DNA of 64,000 nt from Capitulum mitella (lineage: Eukaryota; Arthropoda; Thecostraca; Pollicipedomorpha; Pollicipedidae): assembly GCA_030062745.1 (NCBI GenBank), contig CP099841.1, forward strand, positions 32,914,368 to 32,978,367, given 5' to 3'. Of the stretch, positions 399 to 59,600 are shown in pieces. A program made the translations under genes and the position numbers. How positions within the stretch are numbered: position 1 is the stretch's first letter; every line of letters begins with the position of its first letter. The notes below the pieces were generated by a model. It saw only the letters and a program-made list of their open reading frames with translations, was not told the origin of the DNA and did not search any database.

Positions 399-3300
399 CT
401 GCAACCAACGGGTGTCCATCAGACATTACGTTCTGTCACTAAGTTCGTCACACTGCAATGCCACGGTCTTGGATGCGACAACCAAGCTGCATCAAGATGG
501 AGGAATGGTTGCCTGCGTTGTCCACATGTTGAGTACATGTGCAGCAAACAAGAGAACTTACGCAATGGTGTGTTTTATACGGCAAAGTATACTGCTTAGT
601 ACTAAACGATATTGTATGAACCTTAGTAGTCATTAACAACAAAAGGCTAATCATATCCTCACCAATCAACGCTGTGGGCTTCAGCTTTTTCACTATAGTG
701 CCCAGTTCCTTCATGGGCGGCATGTCCTTGGCGTATTCGACCTTGTGTCCGGTGACGCCTCCCTCCGGCCGGTCCTTCACGATCAGGCCGCGCGAGTCGA
801 CCATGAAGATCTTGTTGCGTGCATCCGCCGTGGACAGACCCTCCTGCTTCATCGCCATCACGCACAGATTAGCGATGCCCAGAGACGCCTGGAAAAGAAA
901 TCATCAAACAGCTGTGAATTTTACCGCACTGGACACAGGAGGAATATCGGAATCATCGGATCTGCCGATATTGCGACACACACGGACGACGGCGACGTGC
1001 TATTTCGACAGTATTCATAACGGCTGGCAGGTGATGTAGTGCCCTGCGCCACCCGCCCGCTGCCTCGACTGATGTAGCCCTGCGTCAGCCGGTCACGGTG
1101 TCCCGGTTCCGCGCACACGCACCTCTCCGGCGCCGAGGAAAAGGAATGTGTGCTCGGAGAGTCGGGTGTTGAGCTTCCTCATGGCGGCCAGCAGGCCGCC
1201 CACGGCCACAGACGCCGTTCCCTGGATGTCATCGTTGAACGTGCAGTACTTGTTCCTGTACTTGTCCAAGAAACGGAACGCGTTGTGGTTGCCGAAGTCT
1301 TCGAACTGGAAGAGGTCTCTGCATTATTTCGGTGGAATATGCAACTGGAAAATCAATATGTGAGATGTTGCACTGCCATCTGTCAAATTACTGCGACTCA
1401 GTAATTCCAACGAGAGCATGACTTACGTTCTTAACATGCCGATCAGACATGACAATGTTCACATGACAGTTCTACAATATCTTTCCATATCGGCATTCCG
1501 CTTTAGCAATAACCGAACCAAATACACAGCGACGCGAAACCACACAAACCGCGAAGCCGCAGATGACTTGATTGGACAAATCACCTCCACGTGAGGGTTA
1601 TACGCTCGCCACTGGGGCCTGTTATCGCCCTGAAACGAGGCGGCACTCACCTGGATCAGCGTGTTTTGGCCGTAACGCTTCACCACTGCCTGCATGAACT
1701 CGTCGATAAACTCGTCATACTCGGCACCCGTTACTCGCTTGTGCTTCAGTCCGATGTAGAACTCGTCATCCAGCAACTCCTGAGCCAAACAGGACAGGAA
1801 AACATGGCGATCAGCCTTCAGATTAAAACGTTATCGAGTGTACAATGTTGAGTCCATGGCATGGCTCTACAGCTTACGCTCAGCCCCCATGTATAACAAA
1901 ATCCCGTAAGTGACCAACACGCTAAGAAATACCCCATGTTTCAAAACAATCAACCGATGGTGATGACTGGTGACTGAGGGCATCTGAAGACTGACTTCAA
2001 AACTGGTTACTGCGTCCGTCTGCCTACAAAGCAGCTAGCGGCACCAACTCACCTGCGTGTTGGTGCCCACGTCCAGCACCACGGGCAGGCACTGGTGAGG
2101 CTTGATGCCGGCCAGCGCAGTGTACAGCGACAGCTTGCCCACGGGGATGCCCATGCCCTGGGCGCCGAGGTCGCCCAGGCCGAGGATCCTCTCTCCGTCC
2201 GTCACCACCACGGCACGGACGTCATGTTCAGGCCTGAGGTCGGTCACAGAGCCAGGTCATGGATGTCATGTTCAGGCCTGAGGTCGGTCACAGAGCCAGG
2301 TCACGGACGTCATGTTCAGGCCTGAGGTCAGACAAGAAGCCAGGTCACAGACGTCATGTTCAGGCCTGAGGTCGGTCACAGAGCCAGGTCACCGACGTCA
2401 TGTTCAGGCCTGAGGTCGTCACAGAGCCAGGTCACGGACGTCATGTTCAGGCCTGCGGTCGGTCACAGAGCCAGGTCACCGACGTCATGTTCAGGCCTGA
2501 GGTCAGACAAGGAGCCAGGTCACGGACGTCATGTTCGGGCCTGAGGTCGGTCACAGAGCCAGGTCACGGACGTCATGTTCAGGCCTGAGGTCAGACAACG
2601 AGCCAGGTCACGGACGTCATGTTCAGGCCTGAGGTCGGTCACAGAGCCAGGTCACAGACGTCATGTTCCGGCCTGATGCAGTCAACGGCAACCCTGACGT
2701 GTTTTCAGGCTTCATAGCCCACCTACTGTTGTTTTTATACCTGATCAGTTGCCTGGCCGTTTGTAACATGTGATACCGGGCGTGATTCATCTACTCGTTA
2801 GAAATGACTAATGCCGGCCTGAACGTATGGACTAACACCGGATAACAAAATCAGGCACATTTAAAACGGCCAAACACCCATTCAGTATTCGGTTGCAATC
2901 GAAAAGCTAAATGCTTGCAGCAGCCTATTCCACAGGTGATAAACCGCAGTCAATACAAAGATCAGCACGGGCCAGCTGACCGTTTCAGCCGCAGCCGGCC
3001 GGCAGCGAGCCCTCAGCACTGACCAGTTCTTCAGGACGTCGTAGATGTGTCCCTTGTCGTGGATGGTGACGAAGAGGCCGCGGGCGCGGCGAAAGATGAG
3101 GCCGAACTTCTGGCAGGCCAGCCCCACGGTCGGCGTGTACACCAGCGGCATCATCTGCTCCACGTTCTCGGACAGCAGCCGGTAAAACAGCCGCTCGTTC
3201 CGGTCCTGCCCGCGCAGCAGAGACGGCGTGAAGCACGTGCTGACACGCGCGAATGACGCATCACCTGCGACGCACGGGCCAATAAGCCACCAATGAGGGG

Positions 3301-56600: not shown

Positions 56601-59600
56601 TGAGCGGGCGCAGGACGGGCTGCGACACCCTGCGCCGTGGTGGGCGGGCATCGGCTGCCCGCGCTAGACGACCGGCCCAGGTGAGCGGGCGCAGGACGGG
56701 CTGCGACACCCTGCGCCGTGGTGGGCAGGCATCGGCTGCCCGCGCTAGACCACCGGCCCAGGTGAGCGGGCGCAGGACGGGCTGCGACACCCTGCGCCGT
56801 GGTGGGCAGGCATCGGCTGCCCGCGCTAGACCACCGGCCCAGGTGAGCGGGCGCAGGACGGGCTGCGACACCCTGCGCCGTGGTGGGCAGGCATCGGCTG
56901 CCCGCGCTAGACCACCGGCCCAGGTGAGCGGGCGCAGGACGGGCTGCGACACCCTGCGCCGTGGTGGGCAGGCATCGGCTGCCCGCGCTGGACGACCGGC
57001 CCAGGTGAGCGGGCGCAGGACGGGCTGCGACACCCTGCGGCTGGGGAGCTGCCTGAGCTGAGCTCGGGACGGGGAGGCGCTGACTACCCGCGGCCGGGCT
57101 CGGAAATATCAGCAGAAATCGGCTGACGCCGACGGAGAGGTGCGGGCTGCAGACTTGAGCCGCCGCGTTCGGGAGGCCCGCGTTTCGGATAGGCTGGCTT
57201 CTCATTAACAGGATATCCCACTGGAATGTTACGGCGGCTGTACCGGCAAAACGTTTTCAACGCTATGAGGTGTCAAAAAATTAAGACGTTTTCGTTACAG
57301 GGCATTACAGCTTGTATTGCCCTTTTATTTATGAAATGTCTCATCACCACTGCATCCGTTTCTGTCATCTCTGGCTGCTTTGAGCACATTTTCATGTACC
57401 ATCCACTCTGCGCTGACATTGCAATCCAATCGGAGACCGTCACATAAGGCACTAAAGGCCGCAGGTGAGGTCACCAAGGATAAGTGCGAGTCTGATTGAA
57501 TGTGTATTTTGAAATGGAATCCGCTCCAAACATGATATGGCCTATTATATTGCCCCAGTGAGGATCCTGTGCCCCAAGGAGGATCCCGAGGTAGGCAATC
57601 ATCTTTTTTTAATGCGGCTCTGGTGAAAGCACACGATATTCTGTGTGTTTTAGGCACATATGCCACGTGGTCACCTTTATGGGAGGTTTCATTCCAACGG
57701 TGGGTCTGAATTTGTCACATGGTGCCGAAAATGAATTTAAGGAAAATTTAGAAGGCATTGGAAATCCACAGTGTATTCTTCAGTGAGCCAGAACTTACGT
57801 GGGATCTAGTCGTTGAAATACATGTTCGATTTCAGATGCAAATTTCTTTGGATGATGCCTTATTTCCATCATGATCTCGTTTTACAAAACTATAGGAAAT
57901 TGCTGTTCTTCAAAAGCCAATATTTCGCCGCGCGACTATGATGTGCTTGCGTGAACAGTGAGGGTTTAGAAAGATCGGATCGGAGCTAACTGGGCGGACG
58001 CAGCGTTCGAAACGACCATTTTGTGACAAATAATTCCCAACTTTGCCCTCATTATTCCACGAACTAGCGAGTGCTGAGCTCAGGTTTATACTACCCGCGA
58101 GTCTCCGCATGACCTTTTTGCGCTCAGGGCTTTAATGTCATTTATTTAAATTTAGCAGGAGAGCGGTGCGGCGTTCTCTGAACCATTGCGCCAGATTGAC
58201 GCTGCACGCTTGAATCCAAACAAAGTTGGACATATGACCTTTACGAGAGGCGCAGTGCATTCCAGGCAGGTCAGTTTGGCCACGCTCGGTCCCTGAGGGA
58301 CAGCTGTAAACGAGGCTGGATGGAACATCTTATCACGTGCGGCCTAAAACTACTGCGTCTGCAACGGCCGATCGGTCCCAGCTGCGACGTCTGGGCGGGA
58401 AATTCAGCCAGCCAGCAGAAACGAGCACTCGCCGTCACGCGGCTCAACTATAGCAACCATCCCCTGATTTTTCAGAAACTGTGCTCGAGCCGAGGTTGCG
58501 TGCTTTCGTATCGAACAATTTCCGGCCGATTCCTGCAACAGTTTCCGGACAACGGCATCAAAAACTTCAGAATCGACGTGGAACACTTACATAAACTATC
58601 GCACACTTTTTTCATAGACTTATCTTACGGTTGATATGTCCTTCTGCACCTGTTTCAGGCGCTCCTGTTCTAATGCATACATGCATATGTAGCTAGGCCC
58701 AAGTTTGGAGTAGCCTGCCGATCCATCCACTGTCCGGATGACCTGACGATTATAAACCAATACCTTACTTTGGCGTCTTCTTATCCCTGTATCTGTGCTC
58801 ATAACGCTAGTAAACATTCCATTAGGGGAGGGGGGCTTATTCGTTTCTTCCCTCCCGAAGTCTCGAGAACTACCTGTCCGATTTATCGCAACAAACGGCT
58901 ATCGATTGGCCATGACAAGAACTTGATTTTTAAATAAGAGGTTCTGAAAATCTTGTTAAGAGTGCACACATGGGGGGGGGAAGAAGGGGTATTATTTTAT
59001 TTATCTGTCTTCCTGTACTAATTTTTAACACTGAACATGATAAAGGAGACGGCATCATGCCTATTTGGCTCCTAATGTGTTGTTTTATCTTCAGAAAACT
59101 GGCATATATTTCCCAAACATACAGTTTGGCCCAGTCACCCCGCAGTGTGTGACTGGGGTCGAGCGGGAAACCGCCGAATTTCTTGAGCATACAGCTTTCA
59201 ATTGCATTTTTACCAGTGGCGCTAGCTTAGTTAGGGACGAAATAGCAATAACCTCCACCATCCCCTCGTCATCGGTGCGAGTAGGAATTCCTCCCGTCTG
59301 GCGGGCTGTGATGTCTCCAAATCACAACTGATAGTTTGGTTCACGGCAGATGCTTCAACACGAACCAAAAACATCTTCGACATCTGCGAAAACATTACAG
59401 GTCATGAATGCGAAGGCTTTTTAAATACGAATGTGAAGCATCGAAGCTTTCGTTTAATTTTCGTTCAACCATTTGTTTGCCATACGAGGCGGGTTGTTGG
59501 TCGCGCTTAACCATGCCGCAGACTGTACACCTACCAAGGGCCGTGGCCTTGATAGGTGTACAGTCTGCCACCAAGGGATGCCGTTACATGTCAACGGACT

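Follow-up and report, generated by a model that had tools for sequence, protein, structure and literature searches.

Two genes with splice sites inside tandem arrays

We analyzed a 64,000-nucleotide stretch of the genome of the barnacle Capitulum mitella (the window; GenBank assembly GCA_030062745.1, contig CP099841.1, positions 32,914,368 to 32,978,367 of the forward strand). It carries a malic enzyme gene on the minus strand and a P450 gene on the plus strand, and four splice sites of these genes lie inside tandem arrays whose repeat unit crosses the exon-intron border (Table 1). Exon borders were placed by reading frame and canonical splice sites, and alignments to proteins of barnacles and other arthropods concurred. 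The spliced malic enzyme is 91% and 88% identical to two proteins of Pollicipes pollicipes and 84-85% identical to those of Amphibalanus amphitrite, which were the best named matches. The P450 gene (47541-61697) is similar to methyl farnesoate epoxidases. The closest match of its spliced product, at 72% identity, is a methyl farnesoate epoxidase-like Amphibalanus protein, and the best Pollicipes match is far lower (42%).

Table 1. Junction arrays, exons and the two nearby arrays that miss a junction, in window coordinates
Feature	Position	Strand	Description
Array 1	10174..10847	-	malic enzyme exon 2 acceptor, border 10181/10182; 32-34 bp unit, 21 copies including the real one; 8 exonic bases per unit
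Array 2	2214..2676	-	malic enzyme exon 5 acceptor, border 2233/2234; 44 bp unit (one 43), 11 copies; 20 exonic bases per unit
Array 3	52145..52345	+	P450 exon 2 acceptor, border 52305/52306; 71 bp unit, 3 copies; 40 exonic bases per unit
Array 4	56552..57039	+	P450 exon 5 donor, border 56599/56600; 81 bp unit, 6 copies, 98% alike; 48 exonic and 33 intronic bases per unit
Malic enzyme candidate exon 1	28275..28312	-	ATG, phase matches exon 2; reading frame only, weak
Malic enzyme exon 2	10016..10181	-	working acceptor in array 1; frame and alignment
Malic enzyme exon 3	4084..4242	-	frame and alignment
Malic enzyme exon 4	3024..3205	-	frame and alignment
Malic enzyme exon 5	2053..2233	-	working acceptor in array 2; frame and alignment
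Malic enzyme exons 6-9	256..1779	-	1651-1779, 1123-1305, 663-888, 256-398; frame and alignment
P450 exon 1	47541..47622	+	frame and alignment
P450 exon 2	52306..52560	+	working acceptor in array 3; frame and alignment
P450 exons 3, 4	52753..53773	+	52753-52871, 53667-53773; frame and alignment
P450 exon 5	56132..56599	+	working donor in array 4; frame and alignment
P450 exons 6, 7	60956..61697	+	60956-61059, 61536-61697; frame and alignment
Junction-missing array	53532..53634	+	26 bp x 4; ends 32 bp ahead of P450 exon 4 acceptor
Junction-missing array	60370..60888	+	30 bp x 17; ends 67 bp ahead of P450 exon 6 acceptor

The malic enzyme query used for the alignment started at an ATG in exon 2, and the exon 2 residues that precede this ATG resemble, by eye, those of Pollicipes and other barnacle malic enzymes. 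The candidate exon 1 lies within a GC-rich stretch and would imply an intron 1 of about 18 kb. The N-terminal segment that other barnacle malic enzymes conserve was looked for on the minus strand of the window and not found, and this candidate is without homology support. With its donor included, 30 splice sites were counted in the window, i.e., 29 plus that donor.

Anatomy of the junction arrays

The arrays were listed by Tandem Repeats Finder (TRF) and then read copy by copy, which confirmed the observation of a preliminary description of this DNA that four junctions sit inside border-spanning arrays. Three acceptors and one donor are involved, so that both 3′ and 5′ borders are represented. 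In all four arrays the copy that serves as the working splice site, as judged by protein fit, is the exon-most one, and the remaining copies are intronic. A same-strand copy of the junction (at least 28 of 40 bases, within 1.5 kb) was present at exactly four of the 30 splice sites; for the other 26 no nearby copy was found within this distance, the best match being 25 of 40 bases. The unit sequences had been described as unrelated, and in all six pairwise comparisons their mutual likeness was indeed no better than that of shuffled units (P 0.32-0.67).

The copies differ in their state of preservation. The most degenerate copies of array 1 are the two at its intron end, and directly upstream of array 3 there is a degenerate fourth copy that lacks the AG. 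In arrays 2 and 3 the copies at the intron end had high change counts, but these included flanking bases; when only bases inside the array were considered, array 3 showed no edge effect (9 and 9). In array 4, copies 3-5 are identical and few differences are found overall. Such uniformity is what might be seen if an assembler had multiplied or misplaced copies, and an array of this type was aberrantly assembled in the amphioxus draft genome, according to PMC3087553. Arrays 1-3, however, contain many distinct copies with partly shared variants, unlike duplicated contig ends, and the unit lengths differ among arrays. As an account of the four arrays, an assembly artefact is therefore, in our judgement, extremely unlikely.

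The border sequence AG|GT present in the units of arrays 1, 3 and 4 recalls the published model of Rogers, in which an intron is gained by tandem duplication of an AGGT-containing segment (PMC4974935, PMC2891723), so that the arrays would be birth marks of new introns. This model needs a copy at both intron ends, but each array occupies one end only. When each unit was compared with 300 bases from the opposite intron end (for array 1, the donor of candidate exon 1), the match was no better than with shuffled sequence in the four cases (P 0.77, 0.47, 0.49 and 0.10). Furthermore, in array 4 the bases that follow AG|GT begin with an in-frame stop. We give an origin of these introns by such duplication next to no credence. 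Recursive splicing at the AG|GT of array 4, whose units each carry CAG|GTGAGC, was also considered and set aside, since by eye no pyrimidine tract precedes the AG.

Splice sites and coding residues in the extra copies

The splice dinucleotide (AG or GT) is retained in 34 of the 37 extra copies (17/20 in array 1, 10/10 in array 2, 2/2 in array 3 and 5/5 in array 4). The likeness to the working site can be complete: four of the 10 extra copies of array 2 are identical to it across 23 bases, and in array 4 the 9 bases of the working donor, CAG|GTGAGC, recur unchanged in each of the five extra donors, which would lead to an immediate stop if used. When splicing at the 34 retained sites was simulated, a premature stop was obtained in 31 cases (14/17, 10/10, 2/2 and 5/5 for arrays 1 to 4, respectively), the result for array 1 depending on candidate exon 1. 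The frame was kept open by three extra acceptors of array 1, located 33, 66 and 99 bases upstream, which would insert 11, 22 or 33 residues into the N-terminal region. Because stops arise in 31 of 34 cases, the normal protein requires the exon-most site.

The exonic parts of the intronic copies have drifted. V157 or R158, both invariant in an alignment of seven sequences, is changed in five of the 10 extra copies of array 2, and a D to H or R to G replacement, at residues that vary among relatives, is found in four of the five extra copies of array 4. None of these replacements is present in the working copy of either array.

We then compared the changes in the AG/GT columns with those in the other columns of the units. 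With flanking bases included, the counts were 4/40 vs 89/640 for array 1 (P 0.33), 0/20 vs 37/420 for array 2 (P 0.16) and 0/4 vs 28/138 for array 3 (P 0.40), and 0/10 vs 5/395 for array 4 (P 0.88). In a recount, the intron-end copies were omitted (arrays 1 and 2) or trimmed (array 3), and the values were 1/36 vs 66/576 (P 0.07), 0/18 vs 21/378 (P 0.36), 0/4 vs 18/114 (P 0.50) and, again, 0/10 vs 5/395 (P 0.88) for arrays 1 to 4, respectively.

Placement of the arrays relative to chance

After three dinucleotide repeats had been dropped and overlapping TRF rows merged, the window contained 13 arrays with a TRF score of at least 100, which cover 4019 of its 64000 bases, and 24 with a score of at least 50. 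Nine of the 13 lie on no junction, and arrays are therefore a general feature of the window. For orientation, two barnacle genome papers put repeats of all kinds at 3.5% for Capitulum and at 3.2% for Pollicipes, the latter figure obtained without a proper repeat library. Two of the nine end shortly ahead of P450 acceptors (Table 1), and arrays seem to cluster beside exons.

Whether four junction arrays exceed the chance expectation depended on the null model. All these tests are post hoc, on one window that was chosen for the pattern and holds two genes. Rotation and uniform placement were run on 29 splice sites, and the seed and random-point tests on 30. Under rotation, 1.63-2.03 junction arrays were expected and 4 seen with the three larger array sets (P 0.13-0.20), and 1.16 were expected and 3 seen with the five strongest arrays (P 0.165). 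When arrays were placed uniformly and allowed to cover no more than 60 coding bases, P was 0.0018 for 24 arrays, 0.0005 for 13 and 0/4000 for the two smaller sets; the GC-matched values were 0.016, 0/1500, and 0/1500 and 0.0007, respectively.

In the seed tests each array was represented by a single unit, the unit size being set to 79 for the array at 8039-8285 (mean of two TRF periods) and to 33 for that at 10174-10847. When this unit was dropped into ten choices of region, 0.35-0.80 junction hits were expected (P 0.0005-0.047); in two of these regions (GC of at least 0.58; within 300 bp of exons) 3 arrays were seen and in the others 4. The excess shrank when the test was limited to within 300 bp of exons (3 vs 0.80 expected, P 0.047). 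The full seed simulation, in which a unit could not be wholly coding, gave 0.34-0.88 expected and 4 seen, with and without GC matching (P 0.0003-0.011). The single-seed nulls thus correspond to an excess on junctions of about 4- to 12-fold.

The yardstick named in the preliminary description, i.e., overlap with random intronic positions, showed no excess within the window: 4 of 30 junctions (13.3%) have a nearby copy vs 14.9% of 3000 random non-coding points drawn in the main gene parts; for points drawn from the whole window the value is 7.2%. We prefer the single-seed null: a junction is counted once, while intronic bases are copied along as an array expands, and this biases the random-point comparison against an excess. 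The claim of more junction arrays than random placement predicts thus stood under the nulls that keep arrays off coding sequence (uniform and single-seed) and fell under rotation. The excess is suggestive only, because the window was selected for the pattern and has two genes.

Interpretation of the arrays

We consider it likely that the four arrays are 'mirage' minisatellites of the kind described in amphioxus (PMC3087553), i.e., neutral or near-neutral by-products of a repeat expansion that is able to grow only into the intron. A short tandem duplication would by chance span an exon-intron border, and the array would then expand via unequal exchange or slippage; any expansion by which the coding sequence was lengthened or shifted would be purged by selection, so that intronward growth alone would survive. 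The spliceosome would pick the exon-most site nearly always, the extra sites would be neutral or mildly costly, and the copy number of the arrays would stay in flux. Units that cross the border, an exon-most copy that fits the protein, extra copies that are intronic and exonic parts that have drifted are all observed. The earlier proposal that such arrays are tolerated since the extra sites fall in introns fits these arrays, in each of which the exon-most copy works and the extras are intronic.

Several points weigh against this interpretation. The use of the exon-most site is a prediction from frame and protein fit, and the great uniformity of array 4 leaves room for its copy number to be a product of the assembly. 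In addition, when the recounts of the four arrays were pooled, 1 change in the AG/GT columns was found vs 5.88 expected (P 0.019), a result that rests mainly on array 1; against random adjacent column pairs, the columns being very uneven, the same count gave P 0.089, and both pooled P values are too small because the copies share ancestry. At most, this hints weakly at a preservation of splice sites in the extra copies. Finally, 6 of the 13 arrays lie on, or at most 70 bp from, a splice site vs 0.8-1.6 expected (P 0.003 or less), and with the set of 24 arrays the number is again 6, vs 1.4-2.8 expected (P 0.001-0.046), an excess close to splice sites that is beyond what tolerance alone explains.

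The pooled deficit of AG/GT changes is what would be expected if the arrays were functional decoys, i.e., if the extra sites shunted part of the pre-mRNA to transcripts with premature stops and thereby controlled how much malic enzyme and P450 is made. The retention of AG or GT in most extra copies and the copies equal to the working site in arrays 2 and 4 also argue for decoys, and the stops are those that unproductive splicing requires, although they fit neutrality equally. Young, near-identical copies, however, retain their sites without selection, no individual array is significant, and the comparison with random adjacent columns is as given above. Furthermore, the frame stays open at three extra acceptors of array 1, and the published amphioxus cases reportedly splice normally (PMC3902484), as suggested by the reverse transcription PCR of the authors who described them (PMC3087553). 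A role in splicing or dosage, the second of the two possibilities that the preliminary description had offered, thus finds little support, the AG/GT columns being at best slightly better kept; the evidence argues only weakly for functional decoys, and we consider them very unlikely.

The excess near splice sites could arise if exon flanks, with their GC-rich sequence, pyrimidine-rich acceptors and exon-edge recombination, were mutational hotspots for tandem duplication, so that junction arrays would be over-produced. The seed simulations point to such hotspots, as do the six arrays within 70 bp (0.82-2.82 expected over both array sets, P from 0/3000 to 0.046) and units that share no sequence. 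Against them stand the post hoc nature of tests on two genes and 13-24 arrays, the random-point and rotation results, and the shrinking of the excess near exons. A hotspot at junctions is possible, and we would entertain it tentatively, leaning somewhat against it. It is compatible with the mirage interpretation, as the two answer separate questions.

Taken further, junctions might be favoured birthplaces of minisatellites across this barnacle genome, with the intronic copies acting as a store of mutated exon ends. A shrinking array could then swap a drifted copy into the exon end, so that the edge of an exon would be rewritten in one step; we regard this extension as unlikely. On the whole, the earlier interpretation was partly supported. 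If the four arrays are mirages, they offer natural test pieces for the choice of the spliceosome among near-identical sites, as well as for the evolution of exon ends and introns.

Other features of the window

A further array (29 bp x 17, at 29592-30248), with shorter arrays beside it, lies 1.3-1.5 kb from candidate exon 1 of malic enzyme and touches no known junction. Interspersed repeats, each about 1.2 kb long, form three pairs whose members are 76-85% alike, at 54474-55690/45475-46654, 31735-32955/17674-18895 and 41568-42815/33537-34801 (inverted); they are probably non-autonomous mobile elements. A near-perfect inverted repeat (hairpin) was noticed by eye at 59515-59575, in P450 intron 5. 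Scans of the window with Rfam (gathering thresholds) and for tRNAs gave no matches, and a scan with the P450 found no relatives in viral contigs. No Pfam match at E 0.01 was obtained for the 10 open reading frames between 14 and 45 kb that were included, among 134 of at least 80 amino acids.

Comparison with known systems

The amphioxus mirages are minisatellite-like tandem duplications of exon-intron borders, described in Adh and in the globin genes BflGb6 and BflGb9 (PMC3087553), with further lancelet cases in PGBD5 and TnC (PMC3902484). Structures of this name belong to lancelets alone in PMC3087553 and PMC3902484, and none of the literature matches listed described mirages in a barnacle or another arthropod, a weak negative, since few of the searches could have shown one directly. 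The barnacle units fall within the mirage size range of about 10-160 bp. In both animals acceptors as well as donors are affected, and in the barnacle arrays, as in the mirages described, one copy is authentic and the extra copies are intronic, many of them retaining AG or GT (PMC3087553, PMC3902484). Further marks of a mirage are homogenisation of the copies away from the array edges, for which the barnacle arrays give mixed signs, and a copy number that varies among haplotypes or somatic cells. Unlike the amphioxus mirages, the arrays described here are in a barnacle, four of them occur in two neighbouring genes, the copies number up to 21, and they are known from one sequence alone. Four probable mirages in two neighbouring barnacle genes suggest an independent origin in distantly related animals. 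Amphioxus is known for its high nucleotide diversity. High diversity has also been reported in a barnacle (PMC8270832), and it is a speculation that this shared property is tied to mirages in both groups.

In human IFI6 (6-16), as in array 4, a tandem repeat at an exon end supplies multiple splice donors; the donors of the IFI6 minisatellite are used and give rise to isoforms (PMC4526556, citing Turri 1995), whereas the extra sites in the barnacle would nearly always lead to stops. In human genes that lie in segmental duplications, internal tandem repeats placed at exon-intron boundaries alter splicing patterns and are reported to make novel introns in recent paralogues (PMC2812944), in contrast to the barnacle arrays, in which there is one working border with intronic copies. 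Lastly, the potato case discussed under the Rogers model shares with the barnacle arrays a duplicated segment that has intron-exon structure (PMC4974935), but differs from them in that no new intron was seen in the barnacle and the opposite intron ends carry no copy.

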